From Pseudoscleropodium purum (lineage: Eukaryota > Streptophyta > Bryopsida > Hypnales > Brachytheciaceae): 64,000 nt of DNA. Positions 1,793 to 60,153 of the stretch are shown one piece after another. The stretch is taken from contig OZ017796.1 of the NCBI GenBank assembly GCA_963969395.1, positions 808,501 to 872,500 on the forward strand, in the 5' to 3' direction. The notes below the pieces were generated by a model. That model was not told the origin of the DNA. It saw only the letters and a list, made by a program, of their open reading frames with translations, and did not search any database. Made by a program: the position numbers and the translations under genes. Numbering within the stretch: the stretch's first letter is position 1; each line of letters opens with the position of its first letter.

Positions 1793-1805
1793 TTTTTCCT
1801 AGACT

Positions 1806-3549: not shown

Positions 3550-3555
3550 TTTATT
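3550..3555 (-). terminator. Candidate polyadenylation signal of TPLATE
   Basis: AATAAA on the minus strand, about 420 bases past the TPLATE stop codon. It is the nearest clean signal seen, but plant signals are loose, so this is only a candidate for the transcript end. Confidence 0.35.
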
Positions 3556-10781: not shown

Positions 10782-10906
10782 CGTTACCGTGGATGTCCAA
10801 GCTCATCGCCTACTCCACCACAAAATTATTCAACCTCCGAACAACCAGACCCAGCCTGCCCTCCCCAGCTGCTCCAGAAAGCCTCGAAGCTCCCCTGGCT
10901 ATGGCG

Positions 10907-10922
10907 AAACCCTAACCCTAAC
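10907..10922 (+). promoter_or_regulatory. Telo-box in the TPLATE upstream region
   Basis: AAACCCTAACCCTAAC lies about 126 bases upstream of the TPLATE start codon. Telo-boxes (AAACCCTAA) are a known plant promoter element, common in genes expressed in dividing cells and bound by telobox-binding factors. Its position fits a promoter or 5'-leader of TPLATE. It is a two-unit motif, not a telomere. Confidence 0.6.
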
Positions 10923-11807: not shown

Positions 11808-11811
11808 TTAA

Positions 11812-12088
11812 AATGGCAGTATTATGTGAATTTGGCACTTTTAGCAGTTCAAACCGCACGGTTTGAACTGAGTTTTTTTGTACTAGAATCTATACTAGTA
11901 TTAGATTTTTGAAATCTACAAGTCTCCTAGATTTCTGAAATCTATATCATTCCTAGATTTTTCAAATTGCTTAGTCTAATACCTTTATTAGTCATAGATT
12001 TTTGAAATCTAAAAGAGACCTAGATGTTGGCAATATACACTTGTCCTAGATATCAAGGTGTGAAAATGGCATGTGGAATACAGCCATT
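11812..12088. mobile_element. 277-bp MITE flanked by TTAA
   Basis: The ends form an inverted repeat (AATGGCAGTATT on the left; AATGGCTGTATT as the complement of the right) and are flanked by TTAA at 11808-11811 and 12089-12092. The insert is missing from the matching place in the duplicated locus near 34760, which supports a mobile origin. TTAA targets are used by piggyBac and Sola3 elements, but TTAA is its own complement, so it could also belong to the inverted repeat. It encodes nothing. Confidence 0.55.
11845..11870. repeat. Perfect 12-bp palindrome inside the MITE
   Basis: CAGTTCAAACCG is followed after two bases by its exact complement, giving a 26-base hairpin. Further right, a short palindrome of the form AGATTTYTGAAATCT occurs three times (near 11904, 11929 and 11996). 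These may be subterminal binding sites or remnants of nested repeats. Confidence 0.7.
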
Positions 12089-12092
12089 TTAA

Positions 12093-20480: not shown

Positions 20481-22965
20481 TGTACAGCCACACCAAAGTC
20501 TTCTCAAATCCTGATGAAAGAGAAGCATGGTTTGGCAGAAACTCTTGCGTACCATAGCTTCTGTCGGCACAAAGACAACTCAGTCGGAGGTGCTTCAAAG
20601 GAAAACCAGAAGTCCGGGAGAATCTCGATCAAGAAGAAACTGTACGTCGCAGATTCTCTGCGTCACCCAATTTTTCCTGCCTTACTCTTTCTTCCTGTCT
20701 TACCCAATTTTTCAAACACCAATGATCTTCCAGGGAATCCAGGCCACGAGCTTTTGCTGTTACCACAGATGGGCCACAACTCCACAAATCAACAGGATCG
20801 GAGATGCATCATTTTCTCACAGAATATGTTCGTTCTGGATATCTGTGGCATGACCTGAGAAGTCCCTCTGCAACCCCACATATAATAATCAGTTGTAACC
20901 AGATATAAGAATTTGGCTTGACTTATTTTGCAATTTGCATCGTGGCATGTAAACTGTCGGTATGAAAATTGTAATCTATTCGACGCGTATTCAATGTGAG
21001 CTGTGCATAACGGCAACCAACCAGAGTGACTACCATGTGAGTCTAGGATCTGGAAGCCTATGAGCTTAGGAATCTAGGCATCATTTATAGTTGACTTGTC
21101 GGGTTTCTATATAATTGTAGCATGCCTTTCATGGTTATCTAGGTATGTATGTTATAGGGCATCTTTAGGGGTTATAGACATTTATATTGTAGGTACTTTC
21201 CATGGATATAAAGAATCTAAGTTAATATTAGGTAGTATGTTATAAACACCTTCAATAGTTGTAGGATATTTACTTACACCTAGGTTTAAGGCTTGTAGGC
21301 TTGTATTTCTAAGCTCACATGTTAGCATCTTTGCAATCCAAAATCATCATAACATTGTTTACCAATGAAGCAAGGGTCTATTTTGCATCCTTGAAAAAGG
21401 AAACTCTACTATGAACAAAAATGTTTTATATGTCTCTTTGGCCAACCCCAATTTTTGCATTAATTCCTAAAGTTCCTTCATATTTAGAGGCCCAAAATTG
21501 CTTCAAAATACGAATTTTCAAAGCAAGAAATCTACTTCTATATTTATTTTTCAACAAATCCAACTACAAGATCTTTTGGTTAATTTGTTCAAGTACATCA
21601 ACCCAAAATTTTAGAGTAAATATTCCCACCAATTGCAAGTTCAATGTGCCTAATCTTCAAAATGTTAGCATTTCTAGCCCTTCCAAAAGGTGAAGTTTTG
21701 TCTTTCAATATTTTTAGAAAAATCTTGTATGTCATATAATTTTTGCATTTTAGTCATTAAGTTGAAAAAAACTTGGAAATATATTTATGAAAAAACTTAA
21801 CCAAAAAACTTTTATATTCATTTTTAAAAAGCTTATAAAGTGGAAGGTGTTATTGTATGAAAGATAAAACTAATATACTAATAATTTTTGGAAGTATTTG
21901 AGAATTATTATCCCAATGTTGAGAATTTTTTAGTAAAAAATTAATATCTTAAATTTTTTTTATTCAAAATTTTTCAAAATTCAAAGCAACAGACAACTTC
22001 ATATGTTTTTTCTACCTTCATTGTTACAAAATAAAACTCTTCATAACTTTTACCTCATTATTCAAAATTCAATAGTTCAAATGTTTTGAATAGGTATAAA
22101 TCTATAAAAATTCTCAAATTTGAGTAATATATTCTTAGAATATATTTTTTATTTCCCAGTTTACTATTGAAATAAAAAATCCTTGTAACTTTTGTAATGT
22201 TTATTGGAATAACATGAAACAAATTCAAGCTTCATATGTAAATTTTGATGAGTAGCATCTAACTTACAAGGTTCATGCAAAAACTCCAAATTGATGAAGC
22301 CAGTAGATCTTGCCCAAGTTCTCAAAAAGCCCAAAGTGTTCTCCTAGGTCAAAAAAATATAGTAACTATTTCTACTTTTAATTCCTAAAAGATCAAAGAA
22401 TGTTTTTCACAACATAAAAATTTTGTGTAGCTCACTAAGAATAGAAATAGTCATTGTATTTTTTGAATTTTTTTTGGATGTAGGGACAAGGAGTACTTTG
22501 CCAAATCTACCTTAATTTTTTTTCATTTGAATTTGTCTATAAGAAGTTATTGGGAAAAATATTGTTTTTGATGGATGGAGGGCAATATTGATAGGGATAT
22601 TTACACTAGAGCAAAATTTGCAATATTATACCCAATTGACCAAGTTTTTGGCCCAGTTTAGCCCAGGCACTTCATTGTCAAATGTATATGTGTTAGTGTC
22701 TAAAGAAGTGGTGGCACAAGATGGTTGTTTTGTTACTTCACTTGATTAAGTTGGAAATTTAAAAGGCACACATAGATGCAAAAATGTGCCTAGGGAGGGG
22801 ATGGGAGGGGGGGGAGAAGGGGGCTTATACTTAAAGTATTCAAACACCCAAATGAATATTGTCAAACCTTATGGTTTTAATAAGCATTCTTGAATTGCTT
22901 TTAGTTCCTCTAAGACGAGCTTCTAGTTACATGAGCTCATAGTCATTTGAGTACTTGACAAAATC
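20481..22965. other. Upstream flank of copy 1 and AT-rich spacer
   Basis: 20481-21020 resembles the region upstream of the intact copy and should contain the former promoter and leader. 21020-22960 is AT-rich with no gene. A G-rich run lies near 22794-22822. The last five bases, aaatc, are the left target duplication of the copia element. Confidence 0.55.
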
Positions 22966-39966: not shown

Positions 39967-42900
39967 TCAACGAGCAGCTGGCCAGCTCGGAACACTGGTG
40001 TTATAAGCACCTGAATCATAATCAACCGAAGTCGATGGGTAACGCTGCTTCTGTTGGTCTTGGTGTTGCTGGTATTGGTGGTGCGTGTAAGCTGCCCCGG
40101 TCTTGGCCTCTTCAAGGGTAAGCGCGCTGCGAAGCTCATGGACAACCTCCGCCATGGAAGGTCTGTGAATGGACTTGGGTTCCACGCACATCATCGCCAT
40201 GTCTGTCAATTTCCACACCGCCTCTTTGTCAGGATGGGAAGACTTCAAGCTTGGGTCTAAGATCTTGTCTGTGTCGCCACCACTCTGGAGCGTCCTTCGC
40301 ACCTGCAAGTCATCAGGTCCACTGTCAGTGACAGCAACGTCGATTCTGTTAATTGGGCGGTGTTCAATATAAGCTTATGTGGCGTTTTGAGATGGACATT
40401 AATTTGCTTTCTGTGTCGACAGATGCGCAAGTTCATATGCCAATTGATAGAGCCGTAGCTACCGTTACCTAATCTTTTGTTAATTAGCTGTTCGGTACTC
40501 ATTACCGTGTGAGATTATGGCCTTCCTAACTCCCATCCACCTGAGTTACCAGGCCCCTTTTCTGACTGCTTAGTCTGGCCCTTTTGTAACACGTCTATTT
40601 ATCAGTGCATTACCTTTTTCTATACAAATTGCAGTTCGTACTGTACAACAATGGACACTGTGCACTCGTCAGCTAGGTTTTCCCTCCCCGGCTCCGTAAT
40701 CGTTTCATTTCCTTTAGTTCTTAGGGTCCATTGCGACTTTTAATTGAATTGCGTTCATTTAAGGAAACTGATGTTCATAGGCGGCTATTTAGCATACACA
40801 GGGTGATTATTCTTGTTTCTAAGACGGGAATATCGGGAGTTTTGTTATAGGAACGGGGGAATTCTGGGAAAACAAACAAACAGGGAGAATCAGTGCCATT
40901 GATTTTCCAGGCTCGCAAAAGCGTGAACCGGGGGGGGCGATCTGGTAACCAGAGATAGCCGTCTCCCTGTGATTGCTCACTTGGTTGTGCATGAAAGCAT
41001 CCATGGAAAAGGACGCCCTCTAGCCCACAATCATCGAGTTTACGTTCATGGCCTATCGGGGCAAAGTTCTCTCCCATCTAGCTCCCATTGCGAAGAGATC
41101 AAGTAATGCGGGTAAGGAGCGAGGTACCCAGTCACAGAGGGTCCAAGCAAAGTCGGATTGCGGTTCAGAAGTTGAAGGAAGCGGGACACGGCCTGTCAAG
41201 AGCTCCAGAAGCACAACGCCAAAGCTGTACACATCACTCTTGGACGTCAAGAAGTGAGTTGTCACATACCTGCAGACAAGCAAGAGAACTCACAAAATTA
41301 GGATTCAAATCACCATGAATGATGCGGGATTGAGAGCAACGTATGCAAGTGAATCTGGACTGGATAATGACATTTTTAACGTTTAACCAACATCTGATCG
41401 TTCCAAATTTCATTTTCGGTACCTAATCTGCAAACTCCTTTTGTATAATCGTTAAAAGCATGTTATGTTCGTCCTACAGAATTCTCCGGTTTCCAGTTGC
41501 TGATTCTAAGTTCTAATCGCAAACGATCATAATAGGCAAAAGTGTAGACTTCAAGAATTAGCACCTTAAATTGACCTGAAGTGAAGATATCTTTGTGCAC
41601 TTCAAGCTCATTCGCTGCCTACCTTCTAAATGAGATTCTTAGAGGGGATGTAAATGCAAGAAGAAAAGATTAGCGATATGGATCAAATCCTCAACCAATC
41701 CAATCTGTCACATTCTCTTCCAAATTGACATTCGAGTAATGGTGGCTCATATAAGGTGAGCTGATTACTCTGGGTCAATGTATCCTCGGCTGCCTTTGAC
41801 GACGGTGACGGAGCCGTCTTCCCCAGGGAACAATCTCGACAACCCAAAGTCGGACACTTTGGCCGCTTCTTTTGTGTTGGTGAGCAAGATATTGGAGCTC
41901 TTCACATCTCGGTGCACTATGCATGGATTGCACCCAGTGTGTAGGTACTCCAGTCCTGGAAGATTCAATTCACGAACGCCCCACACTCAGTACCAAATTG
42001 ACAACCCATCCTGACACGTGTTGTAAAACGTAGCTGCGTTAAAAATTGGAAGATTTCAGGTTAGAAACTGTCTTTAATGCCACCACACATGTCAATGTGT
42101 AATGCAATTATGTTTGCTAGAATACTTCAGGGGGTGGTTTTCGTCTAGTGCTGACAAAAGGATCTGATGATGCCCCAAACGAAGATTGTGAGTTTCCCTG
42201 AAAAACGCTGGACGAGAAATCCTACTCCTGGAGAACCAGAAGCAAGGGATCAGTGGATGAAAGTCGAACTTGGGTACCTTGCGCTGCATTCAACGCCACA
42301 TTGAGGCGTGCCTTGAAATCAAGCACTCCCAGATGTCCGGACGCTATTTGAGTACATAATTACAGTTTCATGGAAAAGTGTCAGTTACATGGGAAAGGAA
42401 CAAAGGACGCCGAAAATGAGAATACTGATGTTGGTAGGGTTCAATACAATTTGTGGGGGAAAAAGGTTGTGGAAGAAATTTGGAAGAAAAGCTTGTGAGG
42501 GGTTGTGCTAGAATTGATCGTACCATTCAATCGGTCTCGTAGAGATCCTTGGGGTAAATACTCATATACCAACATTTGGTTGTCCTTCTCATTGCAGAAG
42601 CCCAACAATGAAACCAAGTTTCTGTGATGAACTCTGGACAGCACATCAACCTGCCCTCCCACACCAAGATCAACATGTCAGTACCTCAGTCAGATTGCAA
42701 TATTACTTTCCATTACCCCCCAACTGCCATTATGGCCAACAGTGGTCGCTTCCGTATCTGCAGGAACTGAAATGAAGGCAGCGAAATATCTTATAGAAAG
42801 AAAAATCACGTCCTTCCATCTTGGAACTGTAAAATAGATTTGGAACCTAACAAAGTTGCCTCTAAGCTTTAAGACCCAGTTTAGTGCACGCACATAAGGG

Positions 42901-45900
42901 TTAATATGTTCCACGTCACAGTAGGAAGAAAACAAACTGCGGTTTAGAGGGAAAGGAGGTGCAAAGAAAGATTTTCAAATAAGAGTGTCAAATAGCTTGA
43001 CGGGACCAGGAAAGAGGTAGAGATTATAATACCTCATTGAAGAACTCATTCGCTCCTTGGCTACTTTCTTGGTTGCCAGTGCCGCTGGCAAGGACCTTCA
43101 CGGCAACCTCGAAGCCATTCGGGAGCTTTCCGTAATAGACAGATCCAAACCCTCCTTTGCCAATCTCTCTATTGAAGTTTTCTGTTGCTCTAGTAAGTTC
43201 TGCCACCGAGAAGGATCTTGCACCTCCAGCATTAGGAGCTCGACCTGTTACTAATTCTACAGCAGGAGCCTTGGCTGCTCTTGTAGCAGAAACATTGTTT
43301 CCGGACCGACGTTTTTTGCAAATACAACAGTAAATAATGAAGATTGCCGAAACAATTACTGCTACTGCACCTCCAATAACAGGACCAACAATGACCCAAA
43401 TATTGGTCTTGTGAGGATCTCTGTCACTGCCTTGTGACCAAACGAGTGTATTTCCAGGCTGATACCTTCACACATGCGGAAACAAATTCGAACATTTATG
43501 AGTGCACATTGAGCACCTCTGCAAGAACAGTTTCGAAAACGAATATACTGCAAATTCAGATGAGAGAAGAAAGATCATCTTACTTGAAGGTTAGTCCAGT
43601 TCTATTAAGGGCTGAAGGAATAACACCCGTGAAACTATTGTTCTGCACATAACTGTTTGAACATTAACTAAATCAGTGAGTCAGTCGTGTGATAGTCACT
43701 CCCAATCATGCAGCAAATGGACATTGCATCGGATAAGACTACAGTTTCTGCAGATTGGTTTTGAGTATTACTTACAGTTCTGTCAGAAATTTTAGTTTTC
43801 CTAACCACTCTGGCAGTGATCCATTTAGGTGGTTGTTCTGGAGATCCCTGAATTTAGAGAAAATGGTAGTCAGAATAGGCCCTCACGATGATCTTCGACC
43901 CACGAGAGGTTGGAAAAACTACTAAATAAGTTAGTAGCGGATAACATCGATGGTTAAGGTCACCGGTGCTATCATCACAAAACTTACAATATTCGAAGAT
44001 TAGTCAAAGCGCTCAAGTTGGGCAACTCCCCTTCCAAGTTGTTGCCAGAAAGATTTCTGCACATTGCAAGCAAATATACTGCATAAAATTTCACTAGATT
44101 GTAAAATTAGCAGAGAAGAGGGACCTCTTAGCAAATTGTGATGACAACTCTCTTGTTACAACATTCTTAGCGAGTGTGCGTGACTAATGTAGCTTGAATT
44201 GCCGTAGATTGGATTTCCAAGTTTATGAGGGATGAAAGATGTACAGGGCGGTGAGCAACTGAAGCTTGGCAAATGCAGCGGGTATAGTCCCTGCCAAATT
44301 GTAGTTCGAGAGGTCCCTGCGCAGGTGCAGACAAAGCTCAAGTGATCACCTCGGTCTTAAATTAAAATGATTTATAAGCTGTCCAGATTTCCTTAAAGCT
44401 CAGAATGTTGCAACCACATCAGAACAAAGCAGTTTCTACTTTTGCAAAAGATCAGCACTATGCCACTATCCATGTTGAACAGTATCCATTTCCAAAGATG
44501 AAAGACCATATTTGCCAGACGAATTCCATACACCATGTCACCATCCGGGGTATGAAATCATCAGGCTGACAAAACAATCAAAGAGAGGGAAATGCCTTTT
44601 GGAAGACAACGAGTTGCTAACATATACTCACACTGATTCGACAGTTGGAGGGTTGACTGTAGAGCAATTCACCCAAGTATGAGGAACAGGGATACACGGA
44701 TCACCAGTCCACTCTCCAAGGCCCAAACTTGATTTGATGCCATCAATGGCTAGTGCTGCACTTGAGTTTCACAAGCGATTAGTGCCACATTACTGCCACT
44801 TCCATTTCAAAAGTAGTCAATGCAAGGTCCAGTTCTAATCATCGTACGGTAAATTCGCAGTCATATGCTAGGAAATGCTATCTTTTCATTGAAAATGAAT
44901 TGAAGCAGAAAAGCGCAGATCTCAGCACTTACCATCCACGTCAAGAGTCTTAGAACGCGAGTTGTCCTCGACAGATTCGAAAAACTCAGCAGCATTTAAT
45001 ATAGGGCCATAGATAGAATAGGAAGTAGGAATAAAGTCTACAGTCTCATAATAAATACTCGTGAAATTTATTGGATTAAACCACCAACCAGTGGCATCGC
45101 CCCCGATTGCCAAGCTGTCGTTGAAGGGGTTCACCAGAACTTCCCCTCCCGAACTGATATTCACCGTGAATATTCTTGAGGTTGCATTTACTGCAGGATT
45201 CAATTCGGCAAAGTGCAAAAATAGGAATCCCTTATCCCCCGAACGACGAGGCAGCGTTAAAGTCATGCGGGAACTTGAAGCTAATGCTGACTGAAGAACC
45301 ATCAGTGGCACTTGAGCATACTCAGGGTTGCCACCTGCGTAAAGCAAGGGCCTCGTTGTGTTCAGGACTTGAAGTGGAGTTGTGGAAGACAGTATGGATG
45401 GCTGTGTCTCATCAACTGAAGTCCAATACCGATCGTAAATGTCATGGGGATACCTGTGCAATGGTTTTAGTAATGAGCGTTAAAATCCACTTTCATGAGA
45501 GGTAATTTCACTCATAAAATGAAAATCAAACGAATTTAATAAGGCACAAGAATGCAGATACACCCACCCACCCACCTTGGAGTGTCGCTAGATCCGAAAC
45601 TGTATCTCCTCTGCGTATTAGCCACGAACCCCTTGGACAGATAATAGTCTTTCATGGCGGGGTAGGGAATTACAAGGCGTACCGAGATGGTAGAAATGTA
45701 AGGGTTGGCGTTGGTCTGGTCTCTCAGCAAGCAAAGGAACGTGGTGTTCCCTTTTGCCATGTACGTTGTCTCATAGTAATATCCGGTGGTTAGAGAACTG
45801 GTGACATTCGCAACCTTTAGTCCATCTATGGTCATCTGGAACGTTGGCGCAGAGTTCCCACCATCGTAAACTCCGTAATAGAATTCCGTCCTCAGCATGT

Positions 45901-46495
45901 ACGTGGATTGGGGTTCCACTGGCAGCTTGTAACAGTACTTCGGAAAACGAGTATCATTGAAGTATCTGAGGGTGTTGAGTTGACGAAATCCATCCCAAGT
46001 AGGCACGTTTGAAGAGGACTCTCCAGTGCTGATGTAACTAGTATCCTCATACCATGTTAAGTTTGTGTTGGGGTCAGTACTATTGCGTGAGCTACCGCAG
46101 TCGATGTTGAGAAATACTCCTGCCAAACCGAAGTAAAATGAGCAATATGACTATATGAAAGATGGTGAATATGCATTCTCACCAGATTCAGAATCATTGC
46201 TTCTTCCAGTGACATGACAACTAGAAATCCAGCAGCTACTCCAAACAAGATAGGCCAACGGAACATTAACGCACGACGTTCACATAGAAGTAATACAAAT
46301 CTACTAATACGTTCTTTACCTCTCTGGTATGACCATCTTTGTTATTGATAACTTGAGATACAAGAGCGAGCAAGCAACAAGAATGAGAGTTTGATTTCAC
46401 GGACCTGGATCAGCCTGCGACCACGCTCCTGAAGCGTTGAGGATGCAAACGAAAGCGACGACAGTAAGTAGCCTCATCTCCAGCAGCTTGCCCAT
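39967..46495 (-). CDS. Malectin-like LRR receptor-like kinase, copy 2, intact
   Basis: A plasma-membrane receptor kinase of the malectin-like LRR-I type; ligand unknown. I placed 14 exons: 46495-46405, 46119-45576, 45453-44933, 44755-44632, 44316-44245, 44056-43988, 43847-43776, 43652-43584, 43465-43033, 42650-42524, 42343-42278, 41955-41769, 41269-41128 and 40302-39967. They join in frame to 950 aa. Order: signal peptide (about 1-27), malectin-like region (about 31-385), WTGDPC hinge, four 23-24-residue LRR exons (to about 520), membrane helix (about 543-567), then kinase. The kinase has P-loop GKGGFG at 623, Lys644, HRD with Asp746 and DFG with Asp765, followed by [11 protein letters not shown] marks it as an RD kinase, so probably active. 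All splice sites look normal. Overall layout resembles Arabidopsis At5g48740 and relatives; which one is closest is not resolved. Confidence 0.94.
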
Positions 46496-47800
46496 TGTCC
46501 AGCCACACCAAAGTCTTCTCAATCCTGATGAAGGAGATCCTAGAAGCATGGCTGGGCAGAAACTCTTGCAGATCCTAGCGTCTCTCGTTACAAGGACAAC
46601 TCGTTCGTGTGCTTCGAAGGAAAGCCAGAAGCCAGTGAGAATCCAGAGGAGCTGTCGCCAGATGCTCTGTCTTACCGATTTTCTTAAACATCAACTTGAC
46701 TTCCAGCCTTTCAGGGAATCCGAGTCACCAGCTTCGGCTGTTACCACAGATAGACCACAAGTCAACGGGTAAAGCATCATCTCCTCACAGAATACGTTTG
46801 ATTTAGATCGGTATCTGTGGTATAATCTGAAAAGCAGAATTTACCAGTTCAGTAGTTCACCATGTTTGCATTCAAGTCGCCCAACAATAGAGACACAAAC
46901 TTAGAGTACGGACGGTCCGCACCCCCTGCAGTTCTATATGCAGATAATAATAGCTTGGCTTACTTTGCACCGCCGTAGGTAGGCTGTCGGTAGGAATATT
47001 TAAATTTATTCCACGTGAATGTGCATAAGCTAAAACCATGATTATTTTGAGACAAAGCCGCTGCAGAAATTTTCAGCCAAGCTTAAGATCTATATATAAG
47101 ATATAAGGTAGGTACACCCAAATGTGCCACTGACCTTTAACCACCATCTACACTGTGTATAAATCTCCAAAGTCAGTTCTGTACCTATGTGGAAGAAAGT
47201 CAAGAAACGCTTTTAGAACCACACTTTCTTCCTTCATAACTTTTGTATCCATTATCCATTATCCAAATGCAACATTCTTTGGTGTGCTTGAATCTTCTTT
47301 CACTTTTCAACAAGAATATATGAAAATCTGAACAATTTAAGAATAGCAAATAGGCTTAGTAGCAAAAAGTGATGGTTTTGGGAGTATCTACTTCATATTG
47401 TTTTCAACTTGCCCCCCTAAATTAGATCTTGTCCAACTTTGTAATAATATACATTTTTAACCAGTCCAAACCATTACCTCTTAGAAATTGGATATATAAT
47501 CCCTCCAAGATGCTTGAAAGTGAATTTATAAAATATGCAAAGAATCATTGGCTCACTTAGAGGGTGTATAGAATCATTTGGTTGGGAAGTTGCCATATTA
47601 GTATGTTAGAAGCTCCCACTCACGGGAAGGAAAAGGGACCTCCTATTAAAATACAAATGGAGTCACAAGCTAGTGGCTAACATAGTATAGTATTTAGACC
47701 AATAATACATGTGAGTGAAAATTAAAAAACTAAAAAACTAAACTAAAAAAAATACAATCTAATGTGGCACCATCAAATTGCAACTATTTTTTTAATTTCA

Positions 47801-47841
<41 letters not shown>

Positions 47842-48215
47842 CAAAAATTTTCTTTTGCTCTATGGGTCTAGATTCATTAGAGGATTTTTAGCAACTACGG
47901 AGGGCTACAAGTTCCCTAGGTTGTCAACGTTGGGGGAACAATGTTGTAGTTGTTGCCTAATGTAGCATGGCAATTGCCACATCACCAAATTTTTTTTTTA
48001 ATAATGAAAAAAAAATTCTGCTTTTTTTCCATTCTAAATTTTTTAAATATTTTTTTTTCAAAAAAAATGAAACTGACATTGGGAACAATGGGAACAGGGT
48101 TGTATTAGAAGATTTTTGGAGGTTGGAAAAGGCTGTTTCAAGCTAGTGCATTGCAAACTTCCACTATGCAATTTATGGGGAATGATTGTCCCCCCCTCCA
48201 ATTTAATATATACAA
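46496..48215. other. Promoter region of copy 2 and AT-rich spacer
   Basis: 46496-47100 resembles the upstream region of copy 1 and should hold the promoter. 47100-48215 is AT-rich without a gene and contains a TA microsatellite. Confidence 0.5.
47806..47837. repeat. TA microsatellite
   Basis: About 16 uninterrupted TA units. Similar shorter runs occur near 48583, 53873 and 60135. Confidence 0.9.
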
Positions 48216-48405
48216 GGTTGACACGACGTCCGGATGTCCGGGACGTCCAGAAGCGGACGCTGTGTCCTCAACGTCTGCTGACATTCGCGGTCCCGGCGGA
48301 CGCAGCGTCCGCCGGGACCGCCCCGTCTGCCCCGTTTGCCCCGTCCGCTTTGATGGCCCTATTTCCCCCGACCGCCCTACTCAAAGTGCCCCGCGGTCAC
48401 TCCCT
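48216..48405. repeat. GC-rich CGGAC cluster 1 (left end)
   Basis: Dense in GTCCG and CGGAC words, starting with GGTTGAC. It includes a 33-base palindrome and the 15-mer shared with the far right end. It lies about 400 bp beyond the 3' end of the kinase-like gene. Confidence 0.8.
48288..48320. repeat. Perfect 33-base palindrome
   Basis: CGGTCCCGGCGGACGC, one central A, then the exact 16-base complement. As single strand it would form a very stable hairpin. It covers the 15-mer shared with the right end. Confidence 0.9.
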
Positions 48406-48798
48406 TAATCTTTAAACAATTAAATGTTAAATGAAGTGCAATGGTTCACGATTTGTTATTAAAACAATGTCTCTTATAAGTTAAAAGATTATAAAGTTTG
48501 ACCATGAGTCCATGATAGTCTTGAAACTATGAAAAAATTCCAATTCATTTTCAGAAGGCAAACTAAAAAAGTTTGTGACTTCAAATATATATATATATAT
48601 ACTATTTAAAAAATCAAGATCAACACAAATACAAACATAATGAATATGGGCAAAATGTATTGAATTTAATATAGAATACCATACATTGTGCACATTTGGC
48701 TAATTGCACATATAATTTTTTGCATTCCAACTCTATATTTCTAAACTAATTTTTAATGCCTATATAACCTATTCAACTACTACTTCTGCATTACCAAT

Positions 48799-50292
48799 CT
48801 AATATAAATGGCGGAAATGTTCATCTGGCATCGGCCAACGATATGTATTAAAAAATCGCGTAATCACATGGGCCAAACTAATATTTTCATCGTCAGTCTT
48901 CGAAGAAATGCGCTTCAAGTAAGCATAAAACACTTTTGCAAAGTCATGAAAGGCAAATTGTGTCGCACTAGGTGTTTTAAGTAGCAAGTTGAAATACGCC
49001 TCTGACATGTTGTTTCCATTCATCCGCCGAGTAATTTTTCGAATGGCATATTCTTCCGACTTACGTGAATACATCGGAATGACTTCCACATCTGCACCTG
49101 CTTTATGCAAATATGCAATATGTGGATCCACCCACCATCTCCTCTACAAAGTTTGTTTCATCTCATCTGCTGATGTGAATGTGTACAAAGACTTCATTGG
49201 CTGAGAAGCTAAGGTGGTCATGCCCCAATCGCAAACTCCAATGTACACACGTGACTCATCTTTTGGAAAATGCAACAAGATATTGTCCGGAGAAAGATCA
49301 TTGTGTAAATGTCCAGCAAGATGCACTGCATACATTATATGCATAAACGCCCATGTCAACTCTGTGCGCTTCTTCCGATATCGCCCTAAACGGTGAGCTT
49401 TTACAACCTCTTCTTCGGTTGGATTTGCATACATCAAATGGATTAGAATGTTGTCTGGATAGTCTTTATCCATATTCAACATTTGTCGAAGAGTTCCACC
49501 ATTCCACCAATACGCATAACCTTCACACGTCGTTCCGTGCACCACATCAAACCGTATCACACCCGCGTGTAGAATTCGAACAACCATTGCTTCGTTTTGA
49601 TGTTTTAACTTTGCAAGATCGGGTCGAGTTTGGTGGTGAATGAATTTCTTTGCCACAAACTCCCAATAAGGAAGTATTTCTGGACATCCTTCAATACGGA
49701 CCTTTCGAATCGTTGCATATTCACCTCTCATCATTCTATCATCAACAACAATCACACGTACTGTATTTGGAAGTGCTATGAGGTGCCGTTTGGTCCTTTT
49801 CGCTTTAGCAACTCTATCATTGCTTTTCCACCAACCAATTGAACCAACTCGATTGTGCTTTTTGGCGAATGGAGCACATCGCCCTCTAAATAAGTCCGCT
49901 TTCAGAATCACTTCTTCAAACTGGGTGTCATTGGGTCGATATTCCTTGCCATATTTAACCAAAATGACTTTGGAATTCCACAAAGCGTGATGAACCTTGT
50001 TCTCCAAATATTTGGTGAAGTGCGTTTTATGCATTTCGTCATGCCATTTTGCCACATTCAATGCATCCAACAACATCTGTGTCATGTCTACCTTGAATTT
50101 AGACACGCACTCCTCTTGATATCTGATGTATTTATTGTCTAAAGACAATGTTGTTTCCGATTCATAAAACTGAACGATGCGCTTGATCATGAATTTCTTG
50201 CATTTTTCCGAAGGACTTTGGCGAGCTACCTCCAAGTTTGATGGTCCCTCTCCATGTTTTAGCTTCGCAACCTTCTTCTTCCCGTTCAGCAT
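48799..50292 (-). pseudogene. Divergent protein-kinase-like gene with one in-frame stop
   Basis: One frame runs from the start at 50292 to 48799, interrupted only by TAG at 49144-49146 after 382 codons. Residues 1-180 are basic and unlike any family I recognise. From about 183 it looks like a kinase fold: a loop near GEYATIRKV (190-198), VAKKF with a candidate lysine at 215/216, a catalytic loop HNDLSPDN (330-337) and DWG (355-357) in place of DFG. HxD, the following Asn and DxG are all kept, so the ancestor could have been catalytic. The part after the stop (about 110 codons) would supply the C-lobe, so stop at 382 probably removes function unless read through. It is transcribed toward the left end of the composite block; its start is about 190 bp from GC-rich cluster 2. 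Confidence 0.65.
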
Positions 50293-50482
50293 CGTGACAA
50301 ATGAAACTGATATCGATCAAATTTTTTAATTTAAAATTGAATTCACGCGCAAGTGCCCAAAAAATTGGCAACAAGGGGGTCCAATAAACCAATCTTGCCT
50401 TGCCTTGGAAAAGAGCCAATGGAGGATGAACCACCAAGCTCTCCGCTCCACCTTACATTCACAAGGGGCAAAGCAAAAGTGA

Positions 50483-50911
50483 CAATGCGGACGGCCCGTC
50501 CGCCCCATCGGGCGGCCCCAAACCATTTGCCCGATCGGATGGGCCGGGGGTGGCGGACACATCGGCCGTCTGCCTCCCCGAAACCCTCGAGCCCCATCCG
50601 CCCGATCAGACAGCCATGGGCGGACAAATCTAGTGTTTGCCCGATCCGACGGGCAGGAGCGGACGGCCCCAAACCGTCCGCTCGATCGGAGGGGCCGTGG
50701 CTAGCGGACGCATCGGCCGTCTGCCTCCCCGAAACCCTACAGCCGCGTCCACCTAATCGGACGGTCATGGGCGGACAAATCGGGCATCCGCCCGATCGGA
50801 CGGGCCGCGGGTGGCGGACGCATCGGCCGTCCGCCTCCCTGAAACCCTCGAGCCCTGTCCGCCCAATCGGATGGCTACGAGTGGACAAATCAAGCGTCCA
50901 CCCGATCCGAT
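50483..50911. repeat. GC-rich CGGAC cluster 2, tandem units of about 110 bp
   Basis: A phrase of the form GCGGACGCATCGGCCGTCYG followed by CCTCCCCGAAACCCT recurs near 50551, 50702 and 50814. Spacing is about 151 and 111 bp; the first unit carries about 40 extra bases. GCCCGATCGGA-type words alternate with GGGCGGACAAATC. It sits just upstream of the kinase-like gene. Confidence 0.8.
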
Positions 50912-51515
50912 TTATTTTCTATATTTGAAAATAGAATCTAAAGAAGAACCACTAATTGTCTAATTTGGGCATTTCTTCATACCAATAAGAAATCATTTTA
51001 GTTTTTAGCAATCGTTGAATGAAAAATAAAAAAATTTCAAATTTTCAAATAATTCAATCTTTCATAAATTAATTAGAAATACATTTATACCATTTACGAG
51101 TTTTCCTAAATGTAATAAACACACAACAATAATTTCAAAATACACACCATGTTAGTACATATTTAACCTCGAATGCTAAATTCAAAAATAGACATAATAT
51201 GGCTCTTACAAAGTTAAATTTCTTCTTCATATTTTTATTATTTATTAAAGTCGCTTATAGCCTTCTACATCAACGCTATTATAAAATAATACAATGATGT
51301 CTTCAACAATATGCTTGCCTACATACATACTTGGTGTACACTATTACACAACACTTTTTGAAAAAGTGAACAAAATTGTTGTTTAAAATTGTTCTATTCA
51401 TTTAAAATTTTGTACAACTTCTACAGTTCTACCAATCTAGTGCTCTATACTTGTCGTGAGAGTAAAAATGAGAAAATTGAGCAAATACATGCTCACTATA
51501 TACTTGCATGTTTTT

Positions 51516-52780
51516 TTATTCGGAATCTGAATCGGACTCAAATTGTTGACCACTGCCTCTTCTTTGTACTCCAATGAATGGACCACCTCCGTAGTTTCCG
51601 TGATATCCACTCGGTGTACCTCCTTGTCTATAGTTTGAACCTCCAAAAGTAGGAGGAGGAACTGGAGTAGTAGGCTCTGATCCTTTTTCATTTGAAGCCC
51701 CGTAATAAGAGGCCCCATGATGCCCGTATGAATCACTTCTAGTTGATCCCGGATAGTATTGGGCACTTCCGTGAAGAGAGAGCAACTATACTGCGGGGTT
51801 ATATGAATTCCTCCACTACCTTCGGAGCCCACTTGAATGGACGTCGTATAATATGAACCAGATTCAGTAGACCTACCATAGTGCGTGTTGCCATAGCTAC
51901 CTGCTCCACTTTGAGAGCCAATTTCAAAGGGAGTGCCATAATAAGAACCAACTGCACTTGAACCACCATAATGCGTGGATCCATAGCTCCCTCTTCCACC
52001 TTAATATCTATTTTGAGGATCGTAACTAGAGTATGAACCACCTCTTCCTTGTTCAGATTCTAGAGTTCCATGTTCATGTCCGTAGGACCCACCATGCCTA
52101 TCTTGCCGTCCACGATCTTGAAGGCTTCTGCGTGTTGCCTCTTGCATTTGTTGTTCGAATTCAATTCGTTCTCGTTCTTCTACATGCTCGTGCCTAACTC
52201 CAAATGTAACAGGCACTTGCATATCATCGTCATCATCGTCATCTGTCCACGCATCTTCAGCATCTCGTAGAACAACTGAAGGTTGTTGTAGATAACCTCC
52301 ATTGGACCACTCTGGCATGCAATCGCTTGCGCCCCTCCACTGTGTATCTATAACGGCATCCGTGCGCGTATAGTTCTCTACATTGCGACCTGTAGCGGTA
52401 CGCCAATCCACGTCCTTGTGGAGTACAATCTCTGTCCAAACCATTGCCATAACATTATAATTCATTATATTTGGTTTGGCGCTTTTAATGCCAAGAACTC
52501 GATGCACTTGTGTGTATCGTTGTTTGAAATGCTCACTTTGGCACGTAGACATTTGTCCTTTCCAACATGGCGCTTGGTGCTCTACACGTTCATGTCGCCA
52601 AAGTTTTTGAATGTGAGTCATTTTCACATACTTCTTGCACATTGAGCAATCCCACACTCTTGTTGGTTCCTCTTCCCATCCCGGTTCACCCACGCACAAT
52701 GGATCGGCCCAAGCATCCCAAACAAACAATTGGGGTCTTCCCTTTCGACTACTTTCTTTGGATGTTCTATCTTTCGGCAT
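51516..52780 (-). pseudogene. Cys/His finger gene with Gly/Ser/Tyr-rich tail
   Basis: Starts at 52780 (MPKDRTSK) and is open for 259 codons to TAA at 52001. The same frame continues past the stop, then the reading shifts near 51800 into another frame ending at 51516. Residues 1-20 are basic. A finger-like motif C45-x2-C48 with histidines at 56, 63 and 68 sits in the block YVKMTHIQKLW, which is shared with the gene at 56278. A second conserved stretch (VMAMVWTEIVLHKDVDWR) follows, then an Asp run (DAWTDDDDDDD) and a Glu/Arg-rich helix. The tail repeats GSYYG/GSTHYGG-like units and ends QFESDSDSE; it looks disordered. Finger plus acidic and disordered tail suggests a DNA-binding or scaffolding role, but that is inference. 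One stop and one frame change make this copy likely broken, unless spliced. Confidence 0.6.
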
Positions 52781-52920
52781 GATGAAGCCGAAGCAAAGAG
52801 AATGAAACAATTAGAAAGCTTAAGAACCAAAATTTTGATTTAATTAATTAACTAAAATTTTACAAGCGTGAACTTTGTGAAAATTTGTAACAATCTCACA
52901 ACAATCGTTCACTCAAAGCG

Positions 52921-53397
52921 GAAGGGGCGCGCAGAGCTTCCAAGGCACTGGTCCGCCCACTCCAAAAGAGAACGATTGTTCGGAATGAGCCGTCCGCCTC
53001 CCCATATATATATGCGGATGCCCCGAGGCGGACGTTCAAATCATGCGGACCACATCAGTCCGTGTATCAATCGGACGGCTGTAACCGAGCAGACGGCCGT
53101 ACCGGGGCGGATGGGTATCGGGGCGGATGGGGTGGACGCCGGATCGGACAAACAGGGCGGACGGAGGACGGGGCGGATGGGTATCGGAGCGGACGAGGCG
53201 GACAGGGCGGATAGAGAACGGGGCGGACGGGTATCGGGGCGGACAAGGCGGATGCCGAATCGGGCGGACAAGGCGAACGGAGGACGGGGCGAATGGGTAT
53301 CAGGGCGGACGAGGCGGACAGGGCGGACAGAGAACGGGGCGGACGGGTATCGGGGCGGACAAGGCGGACGCCGAATCGGGCGGACAGGGCGGACGGC
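52921..53397. repeat. GC-rich CGGAC cluster 3 with a 116-bp higher-order tandem repeat
   Basis: From 53100 on nearly every 8-12 bases repeat GGGCGGAC or a variant. A longer unit starting GAGGACGGGGCG at 53164 is repeated at 53280 (116 bp apart), each half holding an internal near-repeat starting around AGAGAACGGGGCGGAC. The long frame across it is repeat-driven and not a gene. It lies about 140 bp upstream of the finger gene at 51516-52780 and ends beside AAACCCTAAACCC at 53405-53417. Confidence 0.85.
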
Positions 53398-53456
53398 TCA
53401 CCTTAAACCCTAAACCCAAGGAAGCAAATTGTTCTTTTTTCAAAATCTCACGGTAT

Positions 53457-53660
53457 AGATGTTTAACCCCTAAAGTTCTTTTCACTAAAAGCACTTCAAA
53501 ATTGCTATTAGTAGTGCAAATACCAAGTCTTAGAAGAAAAATACTTTGGGGCATATGTAACCGTAGGATCTTGTAGTAAATTAGTTGGAAAAAATGTGGA
53601 AAAAACTTTCGACAAATCCACCATTTGGATTGTAAGATATTAGATATTGAATGTTTCATT
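53457..53660 (+). repeat. Dispersed repeat, copy B
   Basis: Begins GTTTAACCCCTAAAGTTC and aligns in the same orientation with 35756-35960. It starts about 60 bp after the end of GC-rich cluster 3. Confidence 0.6.
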
Positions 53661-54370
53661 TAAGGGGGCTACTCAATTATGTCTATTAATGAACAATTGG
53701 TAGGCTAACAAACCTAACTTAGCATGTATTTTAATATTTGTTGCAATTGTTTTAGGAATATTATAACATAACACTATTATAATATTCTTATAAATGATAT
53801 AGTACTAAATCATTTCAAAATCAACAACATTCGAACACAATCTGTCAATCTTGTCTTCCATACTCCTGTAATGATATATATATATATAAATATATATACA
53901 TACATAAAATATATTAGATAAATCAACATGAACAAATCAATGATTATATATTTCATAGATCTATTTTTCATCAATCAAATAAGAGTGCATGTTCAAATAT
54001 AGACAAAGATGGTTTCTCCATTTGTTCCCAAAAAATAGATAAACAAATAGAGAAAGATATGAAGTGAATATTACTTGGAGAATTGGAAAGAAAGAAATTG
54101 AAGTACTCAATTGCATTTTATTAAATTGAAAAATTGCATGTGGATGGTATGAATTAATCTTCATAGATGCTAAACTCATACGAGTTGCATTTCAACATTT
54201 ATGATTTATGCAATTGATTGAATTGAAAGCTCTTGTAATTACATTTTCAAATTTTTGATTCAATCATTCAAATTTGCAAGAGTGATTTATGATAGATTTA
54301 TAACTTTAAATGTGAAAGCATTGAATGCCTTTATACGTTTGTTCATCAATATATTAATTTTAAATAAATA

Positions 54371-54560
54371 ATATTTTTTTTTATAACATATGCATAAACC
54401 ATTGCATTAAAAAAACAAAAACTAAGAGCCAAGCCAAATAGGTTGGTCAAATGAAGAGAACAAGAGAATAAGAGCCCTACGAGACAGAAAACAAAGGAAA
54501 ACAAAGGAAAATAAAGAAAATATCAAAAGGATTCAAAGGAAGGAGCAAGATGCATTCTTG
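54371..54560 (-). mobile_element. Possible LINE/SINE 3' fragment
   Basis: A T-run followed by CATAAACCATTGCATTAAA resembles the tail region of the insertion at 1240-1792, read on the minus strand as an A-tail. No target duplication was identified, so the edges are approximate. Confidence 0.35.
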
Positions 54561-55831
54561 CAAGACCGTAGAATACATAATGATTTCAAAATCCAAACAC
54601 AAATATATTTTCTATTTCAATGAGAGCCAAAAATGTACCCTGCTCTCAAAGATTGTATAATGTACACGTTATACAAAATGAACTTATAACAGAAAGAGTA
54701 GAAGACATCATTTATCATGATTGGAAACTAAATTGATTTTTTCTTTCTATGTAGAATATTTTATGAAATGTAACAATGTATTTAATTATCATAGTAATTG
54801 GTAGAAATCTTTGTGCAATACATAGAAACATTTCATTCATGTGGAGTTTTTTCATTTATTTAGGATTAAAATTGAAGTATTATACTCTACAAAGTACAAA
54901 CCAAAAACAATACCATATACCTAAGTTCAAAAGTTTGCAATTGTTTTGTGAATTCATTTTGAAAACTCAAACGAAGAAATATTTTATAATCAATATCTTA
55001 TTCATTTGAATCATTTCAAAATTCGAATTCCAAATTCAATTCCTAATTATAATAGAAATTATGTTTGTCAATTTTTTAGGTCTTTAAACAATGAACCCTC
55101 TTTTTTAAAATTAATATTTAAAAACATCTAAAATAAGAATATTGAAATTACGCTTCAAAATAAATATAGCACATGTATAAGTGTATAATGTATTCTACTC
55201 AACCAACTCAAGTAACGAATTTTTCTATGTTTTTAAGGAAAAATATAGCCATACATGATTTGAAAGTTAAAACATTGATTCTTTTTCTTTGTTTTCAAAT
55301 CTAATCAAAATTTCGTTAAAAAATATGAAAGACTCGATGTTCATTTGAAGATCGTGATGCACTTCTAATTAGAAATCACAACCTTTCATTAAATATCATG
55401 AGGTTGAAATCCATTAAACTGTTATTCTAATTATATATTGGGGCCTTTTTAAAAAATTTCATTTGCTTACAATGAAAAAGGAATTGATTATTTTTGCAAA
55501 ACATTTGATTTCCTAATGAACTTTAAAAAAATTCCCACCATCTTCAGATCTTCTCAAAACCTATTTAGAAGGATAATATAAGTAAATAATCCAAACATAT
55601 TGAACATTTGAACTTAACTACATTCCCCTCATTCGTAAAACAATTTAGGGGAGAAAAGAAAAGGTTTAGGGTAATTAGGGTATAGGATTTAGAGTTTACA
55701 TTTTTTTTTTTTTTAAATGATAAATCAATTACATTGATCCTCATTTAGTAGTGATTATTAGGCTGTTTTTTTTTGAAATGTTACCACTCTTTTTGAGTAA
55801 TAATGGCCTCATAGGATGCACCAATGGACAG

Positions 55832-56065
55832 TTGGGCGGACGCTGTCAGCGGTCAGTGTTTAAGTGGGGCGGTCGGCGTGTCCAAAGCACGGACGGCGTC
55901 GGAAGGCGGACAGTGCGGATAGTCCAGACGCACGCGGCGGTCGGATGGGGCGGTCGGACAATGCGGGCAGACGGGGCGGGCGGACAGGGCGGACAGGGCG
56001 ACGGGTGGAAGGCGCGTCCGATGCCGAAGCGGACGTCGTCGGTCCGCGTAGCGGACGGCTATAAG
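55832..56065. repeat. GC-rich CGGAC cluster 4
   Basis: Dense in GGGCGGAC, GGGGCGGTCGG and GTCCG words, in the same orientation as cluster 3 and opposite to cluster 5. It ends about 210 bp upstream of the start codon at 56278. A frame reading through it is compositional only. Confidence 0.8.
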
Positions 56066-56277
56066 GGTGGAGTGACTTTCATTTCTTCTCACTTCAATTC
56101 TCCTTCGGTGCCAAGTTGGATGTGCTACTATTGCTTTATACGCTAGTTGCTCCTACGGGGTGAAGAGTTGGGGTCCTCTATCTTTTGTTACTGTGTTACG
56201 GTTGATGCCATCACTTTTGACTATCACGTGAGATTTTTTTATTCACTTCAATTGATTATTGAATCCAATTGACAATC

Positions 56278-59200
56278 ATGAACGGCGAAGGTGATCGAAA
56301 TATTGAAGGGGTGACTCTGGGAAGCAAAGCCAAGAAAAAGAGCAAAGTGAAGGGGGCTACACATGACCTTCGGCTTGACATTTTAAATGACCCTACAATT
56401 AAAGCAGAGAGCGGGTGGGAAGATGAAGATGCGGAATATTGGACATAAAAAATGTGCAGGACCTATGTTAAAATGTACCACATTGACAAGTTGTGGCCTC
56501 AGGAGTCGCACAAGAGTCATACACGGGATTTTTGTTGTAAACTATGGACTTGCAACAACAAACATTTTGTCCATCGATCTAAAGAGGTGTGGCGTGTTCT
56601 ATTCGGAAACAAGCGCAGAAGAAAAGGCTATATTAATTATAGCGTGGCGTGTATAGTTTACGTCAAACTTATATTAGAACGCAAGATCGATTGGAGCACG
56701 TTTCCGACGACAACAGCTTGCCCACTTCTACTTGAAGCCAATCAAAAGGACATTTCCGACTTGTACAATTCAGAGGGAGAAACATAAAAAGTATTAAAAA
56801 ATACTATTGAGGTGAAAACGGATGGTGTAGAGAAAGCCTCAAATGTTGAAGAATTACGGTCTGTACAATCTCCAACAAAAGCAATCAATGAAGGCTCTTC
56901 GAAAAATGTGGGGAAAGATGTGGAGAAAGATGTAGAGGCGCAGGAGGGTGAAGTCTTTTCCACAGCTCCAACGCGTTTGACCTTTATACCAAATGTTGCG
57001 GCACAAACGCAAACGGAGTTTATAAACGAAGGCAAGATTTGCACGGAACGCGGGGAAACTTCAAAAAGTAAAGTAGACGAAGTCTTGGCGGAGAAAGTGG
57101 CAAAGGCTAATGCTACAATTGATAGTCTGATAGCCAACAATTGTTTTGATAGTTTGGTCTACAAATCTCCGCCTACGCATCAAGGCATTGAATCTAGTCC
57201 AGCGTTAAGTTTAGAAGACAAAGTACATACGCCTCGTGGACAAGGCGTGACGATTGATAATATATCTTCATTATGGAGTTTCGAGCGTAAAAGGCGGGCG
57301 GAAGAGTTTCCGTTTACAACATCATTGCCGAGTCTTCTACATTGAACCTTGCAAGATATGTCCAATCCAAAACAATTGGAAAATCTTTTGAAGCTCTCGG
57401 TTCAATTGGCTAACCTTTATGAAGAAATAGGCGGATCGTCTAACCCCGATGATGGTGCTATTGCTGTTCCAATGAGTCCACTTGCAGATCCAAAGAATGT
57501 TGCATATATACTTGATACAGCTTTCAAGATGACGTTGTCAGTTGAATTTTTAGCAAAAGTTGCTCTGACTTTTATAAATTTGGCCAAGGAGTTTTCTTTC
57601 ATGACACCAGGGATGTTGAAAGGTGCTATAGCATTTCAGAATCTTACGAAGACTTTCGGACCACTTTTCGAAGAAAGAGATGTTCACATACTACAATTGG
57701 TGGAATATGAAAAGAAAATTGCTGACCTTAGAGGAGTAGAAGCAAGGTGCAAAGTGTTGGAGTTGAAATTAAAGACTTCGGAGAGTGAGGTTGAACATTT
57801 AAATCAGCAATCATCGAGGCAAATGGAGGAGTTGATGAAGATGTGTAAACGGATTGCAGAATTGCAAAGAACCTCCAAGAATCCAAGTAAGGTTGCAATC
57901 TCACCAATAATTGTACTCGGAGACAGTCAAGAGACTCAAGAAAGTGAAGATAAGCTCTCTCTTCCTTTTGATAAAGCCGAAGCAAGCGACAATCCTGCCA
58001 TTGTGAATGTACAAAAAGTCACGACATAAGCATGTTAAAAGCGACACAACAACCATCAATGGAAAAGCTTTTATCCGTTTACATGAATGCGGAGACGCAA
58101 ACAAAGAGTTGTGACTTTGAAGAGTTGAAGCATAAATTGGAGGAGGCAATTGAAGCAAAAGGAATCGTTGAATCCAAGTTGAATCGATTGCAATTGTGCT
58201 TGGATTTGAAGAAGTTTATGCCATCTAGCGGCTTGGAGTCTCGATGGTTAGCATGGATACAAAGACTCCAAGATAGACCCTCTGTAGTATCTCGAGCAAT
58301 GGCAGGTCTTCAAACATTGGCAATGGAGTCGAATGAAAATTGCGATGCCATTCAAAGCTCTTTGAGTTGGTTCAAGACTATGTTTGACCAACATCCTTCT
58401 AAGAGATATACGGAGATCACATCTTGGGGAGACATGGATGCCATGTTTGAGCGGTTAAACCACACAAAGAAGGACCAAGCTCCACCCATCAATTGGGCCT
58501 TGGAAGTAGAAGAAGGATGGATCCCTTACAACACACTTTCAACACACATCAATGTGAAAGACAAGCGAGTGGTACATACTTGTGATCCAGCCTCTCCAAT
58601 CTTGGATGGTTGTTGTAGCCTTTGCCAAGGCCTCTTCGGACCGGAAGGTGCGATAACCATAGGCCAATGTCGACACACTTTCCATGTCACTTGCATTGTG
58701 AAAGCATCACTCATTCGTTCGGTGTGTGCTGAGTGTCGTAGTCCATTGAGTGCTAGGTTCTACGAAATGTTTGGTATCTTGGAAGCTATACCTCCAGGCC
58801 ACGAGTACAATCGTTGGAATCTCCTCTTGATCAAGCGCCGTATAAATTCCAAAATTATCAACATTGGGGGAAGCCAATCCGGTGGAATGCAAATGAACAG
58901 AGGCATGATTTATACGAGGAATCTCAACAACCATTGGATTTGGATGTGTGGATGACTTACAGTAGAGAGGTGGAATTGCGGGCTCGAGGAATCGTAGATG
59001 ACGCGGCCTGTGAAATGTTTTGTCGCAACATGGGGGGACATTAGAGCTTGCAACACGAAAAGTTCTTTCGTTTTCTAGATAAAAAAGTGGAGAGAGGACC
59101 AGAAGACAGTTGGGTGGAGGTGAACCATGGAAAAGAGTTTAATGAGCAGTATAAGGCATACGACCACACCCTCGTAGGTAGGGCCCTTCTATTGTCGAAG

Positions 59201-59560
59201 TCGGAAGAGGCTACAAAAGTTCGTGCTATCTACGATACAAATGGACAAACAAGCATAGGACATTCATCTGTAGATGTGACAGTAGCATTTGATAGGCGCA
59301 TTGGCGATATTATAGGGCATTGGAAGGCTTTCCTATTGGATGGAGACTGCCTCACAGTATGGCAAGGGAAAGGAGATGATGAAGTTGTTCAAGCGATGGT
59401 AGATAATGTGGAGAGCAACTTGAGAACCTTGAAAGCAGACGAAGTCGATTTATCACCGAAAAGAAAACAAAAAAGGAAGCGTAAAGAGGACGATGACTTC
59501 TCTCCGAAAACCAAGAAACAATTTCATAAGGTGGACATCGAAGTTCAATCTGGAGGGTGA
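56278..59560 (+). pseudogene. Finger, coiled-coil and RING-H2 gene, broken into six open pieces
   Basis: Starts MNGEGDRN at 56278. The first four pieces share one frame, cut by TAA 56446, TAA 56785, TGA 57343 and TAA 58027. The frame then shifts (58032-58955) and again (58814-59560, with TAG at 59042). The first part (KMCRTYVKMYHIDKLW and VACIVYVKLILERKIDWS) matches the finger gene at 51516-52780, with the first stop at the position of that gene's first zinc-ligand Cys. About 57650-57870 is a Leu/Glu/Lys-rich coiled coil. A RING-H2 finger (CSLCQ, QCRHTFHVTC, CAEC) lies near 58617-58740. The last part is acidic then basic (PKRKQKRKRK), probably nuclear targeting. A RING suggests ubiquitin ligase activity in the ancestor. 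Whole-length sense frames suggest recent decay; introns or separate genes are alternatives. Confidence 0.6.
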
Positions 59561-59970
59561 ATAGTCCGTCCAAGTCAACAATGGTCAACTCGTCAATCAT
59601 CTACTAAACTCCTCGGTATAGCAGATTTTCCTTTTGTTTTGGGAGAAGGTAGTGGTCCATCCGGTGGAAAGTAGGATTTGAGGAGAATTTTGTTTTTTAA
59701 AAACAATGGTCCTTTCATTGTTTAAAAACAAAAAAGAATGTGAAAGATTTAGATCTTAAAAAGATCGTATAGGATTCAATAGTGATATTGGAACTATGTT
59801 TTCATGTATTTTGTTTATACATATATATTTATATATAAAGATGCTATATTTTCATTTGCGTATAAAAATATTTTTATATGTACATCTTATTTTACGTGGA
59901 TGCATTCATTTTTGATTGTGTAACATTCAAATTACATAACAATATAAAATTTTCTAATGACTAATGGCAA

Positions 59971-60130
59971 TGCGAAGTCCGCCCCGTCCGCCCCGTCTGA
60001 TCTGTCTGCCCGACCGCCCCGCCCGTCCACCTTCCGACGGCGGGAGGGACGCTGCGTCCGCTAGCGTCCGTGCGTCCGAACGTCGGGAAAACGGACGCTA
60101 TTTTAGGGCGGACGTTGAGATTCGTCAACC
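59971..60130. repeat. GC-rich CGGAC cluster 5 (right end)
   Basis: Starts with GTCCGCCCCGTCCGCCCC and ends with GTCAACC, the complement of the left end. It includes GGACGCTGCGTCCGC at 60047-60061, the complement of the 15-mer near the left end. It lies about 400 bp beyond the end of the RING gene. Confidence 0.8.
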
Positions 60131-60134
60131 CTGA

Positions 60135-60153
60135 ATATATATATATATATATA
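60135..60153. repeat. TA microsatellite beside the right end of the composite block
   Basis: Run of alternating A and T directly after the putative end. A shorter TA-rich stretch lies just outside the left end (48202-48212). Confidence 0.85.

Follow-up and report, generated by a model that had tools for sequence, protein, structure and literature searches.

The window analysed here, a stretch of 64,000 nucleotides of DNA from the moss Pseudoscleropodium purum, contains an element of about 12 kb that spans positions 48213-60133, begins with CA(A/G)GGTTG... and ends with ...CAACCCTG. Its terminal inverted repeats are CAAGGTTGACACGA at the left (48213-48226, plus strand) and ...TCGTCAACCCTG at the right (60120-60133, minus strand). 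The inverted outer ends had already been recognized in the first-pass annotation, and the true limits are located 3 bp further out on each side. The left terminus is CAAGGTTGACACGA in the window and CAGGGTTGA... in the other copies for which the left end was available. As described before, the 15-mer GCGGACGCAGCGTCC is found inverted inside the two ends: it is exact at 48296-48310 (plus strand) and at 60047-60061 (minus strand). With up to three mismatches it has 12 matches as compared to 0.20 expected in shuffles, several of these matches overlapping on both strands and one lying outside the element. A comparison of the flanks revealed a perfect 8-bp target-site duplication, AATATATA, at 48205-48212 and 60134-60141. 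The earlier statement that there is no clear target duplication is therefore wrong; the duplication becomes visible once the terminal CA/TG is counted as part of the element. A random pair of flanks agrees over 8 bp with a chance of about 4e-5, but the flanks in the window consist of AT repeats, with 11 occurrences of AATATATA in the whole window, which makes such a match easier there.

Three genes are present between these ends. Gene A (48799-50292, minus strand) encodes a protein-kinase-like protein of about 497 amino acids in a single frame that is interrupted by one in-frame stop in the window copy; unbroken long frames were found in copies 1-3 of the further copies described below. The catalytic pattern of kinases comprises a Gly loop, a Lys, a Glu, the HxD...N motif and DxG-like positions. 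In 21 sequences, i. e. the query and 20 of its 58 database homologues, G190, K215, E234, D332, N337 and D355 are invariant and H330 is nearly so. Even though the Pfam Pkinase match is weak (score 23.3, under the curated cut-off of 31.7), the conservation of the catalytic positions supports the original reading of gene A as a kinase. Among the homologous entries that bear organism names, Ceratodon purpureus (P0026 and P0040) is the sole eukaryote, and one Ceratodon kinase cluster represents 126 sequences. One scan of bacterial and archaeal genomes confirmed no kinase relative. The homologue P0005, located on a 2.9-kb contig, is assigned to a metagenome bin named 'Bacilli bacterium' and is probably misbinned plant DNA.

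The two other genes encode finger proteins. Gene B (51516-52780, minus strand) encodes a protein of about 420 amino acids with an acidic stretch and a Gly/Ser/Tyr-rich tail, for which 19 database homologues were found. In the window it has a stop at 52001 and is frame-shifted beyond. An intact gene B was not encountered: the frame is of full length in six copies, each of which has 1-3 stops, and the window copy is broken. Gene C (56278-59560, plus strand, the end being approximate) combines an N-terminal finger akin to that of B, a predicted coiled coil, a RING finger and a conserved C-terminal region. Its length is about 1055-1132 amino acids in copies 10 and 9, the only ones in which it is free of stops; the window copy has four in-frame stops and is broken into short frames. 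A RING finger is a pattern of eight Cys/His ligands, and all eight (C767, C770, C785, H787, H790, C793, C804 and C807) are invariant in 8 sequences. The RING reading of gene C holds with a Pfam score of 26.1, just under the curated cut-off of 27, and the protein is a possible E3 ligase. The paralogy that had been proposed for the two finger genes is borne out by a homology of B and C with an hhalign probability of 99.7% over 142 columns. For gene B, Pfam gave neither a BED nor any other accepted finger, the best match being zf-C3HC (2 of 14 members, E 0.0054), and Foldseek returned nothing with E below 3 for its poor model (mean pLDDT 49). The model of gene C is poor as well (mean pLDDT 40), and a fold is not recognizable at such quality. 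Given the finger without a Pfam BED match and the poor models, DNA binding by the B/C finger is a guess from the Cys/His pattern. Of the profile and structure analyses suggested earlier, the former yielded the kinase and RING matches, both below the cut-off, but the B and C models were too poor to identify folds.

The five GC-rich CGGAC clusters noticed in the initial inspection are present in the element: the window has 91 CGGAC/GTCCG words, and 57 of them fall within the clusters, whose borders were drawn by hand. Cluster 1 (48213-48420) forms the left end and contains the 15-mer, cluster 2 (50480-50930) is located upstream of gene A, cluster 3 (52910-53410), with tandem repeats, upstream of gene B, cluster 4 (55830-56075) upstream of gene C, and cluster 5 (59975-60133) forms the right end with the inverted 15-mer. 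Thus, the window form has one cluster per end, and each of the three start codons is preceded by a cluster that starts about 130-200 bp upstream. The clusters of the window contain tandem units, and cluster length varies among copies, e. g. from 243 to 518 bp for cluster 2 if copies 5 and 6, which have longer stretches, are left out. Between clusters 3 and 4, an AT-rich central stretch (53415-55829) is common to the transposase-bearing sister form with 93% identity.

The element is real and mobile. In the genome searched (313 Mb), the left 205 bp has 40 scored places including the window (from 2905 first-look candidates), the 39 others being 85-92% identical, and the RING reading has 129 including the window (from 1069 candidates). 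Some of the RING and hAT matches occur as inverted pairs of equal score about 10-100 kb apart, e. g. C41:1125413(+)/1135055(-), C49:701573(+)/733563(-) and C46:299532(-)/327085(+); these may be large palindromes, they may have been created by transposition as inverted duplications, or they may be an artefact of the assembly. Ten further copies were picked by a paired left end and RING match or by a long RING frame, and are thus a non-random sample. Eight of them (1, 2, 3, 4, 5, 7, 9 and 10) contain gene A, gene B, the central region and gene C in this order, with gene A of copy 5 cut off by the end of the DNA examined; in copy 8, the match begins no earlier than the start of gene C in the DNA examined. 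The long pieces of the further copies are about 91-96% identical. Both ends are available for 11 elements, i. e. the window element, copies 1, 2, 3, 4, 6, 7, 9 and 10 and the two sister elements S1 and S2, and eight of these are flanked by perfect 8-bp target duplications: AATATATA, TATAAAAC, ACAATGAA, CTATTTTC, ACTATAAG, CTTTCAAT, GGTATGAA and TTCATAAA. For copy 3, the joined flanks align through the junction at two paralogous places that represent empty sites, and these carry a single CTATTTTC (L050) or TTATTTTC (L022). For the other seven of the eight joined flanks, no empty site was found in the 362,580 bases examined. The unity and mobility that had been presumed for this element are therefore shown by additional copies with both ends and the same gene order, by the differing duplications and by the empty sites of copy 3. 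Within this genome, the proposal withstood the test that had been named for it, i. e. the lack of a second two-ended copy or confinement to a single syntenic locus.

The three remaining elements with both ends, copies 9 and 10 and S1, have no matching duplication. In copy 9, the right end adjoins the central part and the transposase of another element, and directly after S1, genes B and A follow as an inverted copy. Since other element sequences directly adjoin copy 9 and S1, these look rearranged. The three-gene element of copy 9 and its transposase-form neighbour (L037/L038, from 13427 of the joined stretch) are a nested or recombined pair. The inverted B and A copy at S1 (L051/L052, about 299-14404 of the joined stretch) has a nearly identical kinase gene, and the arrangement looks as if it were the product of an abnormal transposition.

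The sister elements disclose the superfamily to which the element belongs. S2, an element of 9.7 kb, shares both ends with the window element and contains between them, from left to right, the kinase gene, the central region and a transposase gene. It is flanked by its own target duplication, TTCATAAA, and neither its kinase frame nor its transposase frame is intact. In S1, the transposase (P0069, 1121 amino acids) matches the Pfam families DUF659 (1.8e-28) and Dimer_Tnp_hAT (5.2e-9). Near-full-length transposase was scored at 41 places including the query (from 1396 candidates), seven of them without a stop, and Dimer_Tnp_hAT matches are located 7.6-7.8 kb downstream of at least five of the 40 left-end places. 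Copy 6 unites the two gene sets: within one pair of ends and flanked by the duplication CTTTCAAT, it carries the genes for the kinase, the finger protein, the finger-RING protein and the transposase, with additional DNA nested inside the element; this four-gene form is known from this one copy. Among the 11 elements that bear gene C (the window element and copies 1-10), the right end follows directly after gene C in ten, and the transposase follows in copy 6. Finally, four elements of 248-298 bp in the DNA examined consist of the ends only and have perfect duplications, having been selected by near-matching duplications. The family thus occurs as a three-gene form, a two-gene form (kinase and transposase, 9.7 kb), a four-gene form and an ends-only form (about 250-300 bp).

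hAT ends are of the CAGGG type, and such short terminal inverted repeats are present in the family (CAGGGTTGAC / GTCAACCCTG; CAAGGTTGAC in the window). A hAT transposase is found within the same ends in S1, S2 and copy 6 and is absent from the window element as judged by Pfam. The first-pass annotation had seen no transposase and no resemblance to a known transposon family. The former agrees with our Pfam scans of the window element's proteins, which likewise gave none; the latter does not apply to the element as such, as it belongs to the hAT superfamily and its same-ended sisters carry the transposase. These sisters identify the window copy as a decayed form, devoid of a transposase, within a multi-gene hAT family. 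Very probably, it represents the three-gene form of a hAT-superfamily family that is mobilized in trans by the transposase of its sisters: the transposase made by a sister copy would recognize the shared ends, and the window form was presumably moved in this way. The ends-only elements with their duplications suggest that the ends alone are sufficient for mobility.

Are the kinase, finger and RING genes part of this family, or are they host genes picked up by pack-type capture that have no role for the element? Transposons do capture genes, the window form has no transposase, and most copies of each of the three genes contain stops (0-5 per gene per copy), with no intact gene B among those seen. 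However, the same three-gene order recurs in eight of the ten further copies, and the kinase gene is retained in the transposase form too. Moreover, the genes have numerous distant homologues, and among those that bear a name, a minority of the entries, there is no host parent. The patterns of variation also argue against mere passengers: pooled pN/pS among copies is 0.50 for A (11 copies), 0.44 for B (over the first 259 residues in 11 copies) and 0.55 for C (10 copies). For variants present in at least two copies, the values are 0.44, 0.39 and 0.56 for A, B and C (12, 11 and 22 copies), as compared to 0.66, 0.56 and 0.61 for singletons in the same sets, and the transposase (4 copies) gave 0.44 for common variants and 0.79 for singletons. 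The direction of these values fits constraint in active elements and relaxation after insertion, the difference being small for C. The singleton values are below 1 as well, and this blurs the distinction between constrained ancestry and neutral decay, most of all for C. With pN/pS values of about 0.5, distant homologues and the conserved kinase residues, the three genes seem to be under constraint and not the result of random capture, and we regard capture of passengers as unlikely. The window copy itself is probably a relic.

The recurrence of three genes at high copy number with no known transposase inside could also be explained if the 12-kb element were autonomous, belonged to an unknown superfamily in which C or B is a new kind of transposase, and merely had its ends in common with a hAT family. 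Yet a recognizable hAT transposase is found together with these ends and 8-bp duplications, copy 6 combines both gene sets, and there are ends-only forms with duplications; the model of gene C has no recognizable fold, although it is too poor for an exclusion. This possibility is thus very improbable. That the element is an endogenous DNA virus or derives from a virus is hardly credible, since the family has hAT ends, duplications and a transposase, even though large DNA viruses can also carry kinase and RING genes. One scan of the viral contig collection confirmed no kinase relative, and a viral origin was set aside.

How the different forms of this hAT family may have arisen is suggested by their borders. 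The loss of B extends from 50517-50623 to 53096-53415, that of C from 55925 to the cluster that precedes the transposase, and that of the transposase from 59997 to 60010-60017, in all cases in or at the edge of a cluster. In the transposase form, clusters are located at both ends and also upstream of gene A and of the transposase gene (in the latter case about 420 bp before the start used), and in copy 6 clusters precede the genes as well. With borders in or at clusters, we infer that genes are trimmed by recombination between clusters, which would delete single genes and thereby generate the different forms.

The family shares with hAT elements of the Ac/Tam3 type the 8-bp duplications, the short CAGGG-type ends, the DUF659 and Dimer_Tnp_hAT transposase of the sisters and the occurrence of non-autonomous and ends-only derivatives. 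It differs from them by the window form without transposase and by the addition of genes for a kinase, a finger protein and a finger-coiled coil-RING protein, each with a GC-rich cluster upstream. The Lanisha elements were considered because they are reportedly DNA transposons described from the moss Ceratodon purpureus, and would thus resemble our family in type and host. According to the available text of PMC12730594, Lanisha is similar to EnSpm (CMCT group), a group with 2-5-bp duplications; identity with Lanisha was set aside, as this description differs from a hAT element with 8-bp duplications. The same text reports DNA transposons of rust fungi that belong to known superfamilies and carry extra enzyme genes, as does the moss family: hAT7, among others, carries TET/JBP genes, and IS3EU elements carry an alpha-kinase gene (PMC12730594, as far as available). 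As in the moss family, the IS3EU kinase gene is opposite in orientation to the transposase gene; however, gene A matches Pkinase (weakly) and not alpha-kinase, the hosts are different, and hAT7 makes duplications of 7 bp rather than 8 bp (PMC12730594, same text). Extra-gene hAT elements are already known in rust fungi, judging from the accessible part of PMC12730594, and the kinase-finger-RING set in a plant hAT element may be new. The Pfam scans of the family's proteins gave no match to TET/JBP. None of the papers listed in the literature searched, most of it outside subscription journals, describes plant hAT elements that carry kinase, finger and RING genes.

An analogy for a function of the clusters comes from the VANDAL elements of Arabidopsis, which are Mutator-like, whereas the moss family is hAT. 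In an anti-silencing system of the VANC type, a protein encoded by the element binds the repeated motif and removes methylation. These elements encode VANC anti-silencing proteins and have tandem target motifs (PMC5735166, available sections). The likeness is one of anatomy and extends to accessory proteins beside the transposase and to short motifs in variable tandem repeats at non-coding, upstream and terminal positions (PMC5735166, same sections). By analogy with the tandem target motifs of VANC, the CGGAC clusters might serve as address tags for an element-encoded protein, an idea that we put forward tentatively: as putative binding sites of the B/C finger or of the transposase, they would tag promoters and ends. 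Equally tentative is the idea that the kinase and the RING protein have an anti-silencing or regulatory role, with proteins of the host or of the element as their targets, and so keep the family expressed. It is possible, though doubtful, that kinase, finger and RING proteins make up a dedicated host-control module in which the fingers bind the clusters at promoters and at both ends, where silencing would be disabled by the kinase together with a ubiquitin ligase. In that case, the three-gene form would serve its transposase-bearing and ends-only relatives as a helper and be repaid by transposition, so that labour would be divided within a single transposon family.

If this is true, plant hAT elements, which are usually seen as one-gene parasites, would include a branch with a constrained accessory gene set that comprises, among others, a kinase as well as a probable ubiquitin ligase, and the family would offer a testable example of host manipulation by a transposon via phosphorylation and ubiquitination. 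Moreover, modular gene loss through promoter repeats would split one family into complementary forms. The family could also explain unannotated multi-copy kinase and RING genes of mosses as transposon genes. Elsewhere in the window, the regions 4000-11000, 13000-21000 and 40000-47000 mostly have a GC content of about 39-47% (61% at 10001-11000) amid DNA of about 27-40% GC, and these are perhaps retrotransposons.
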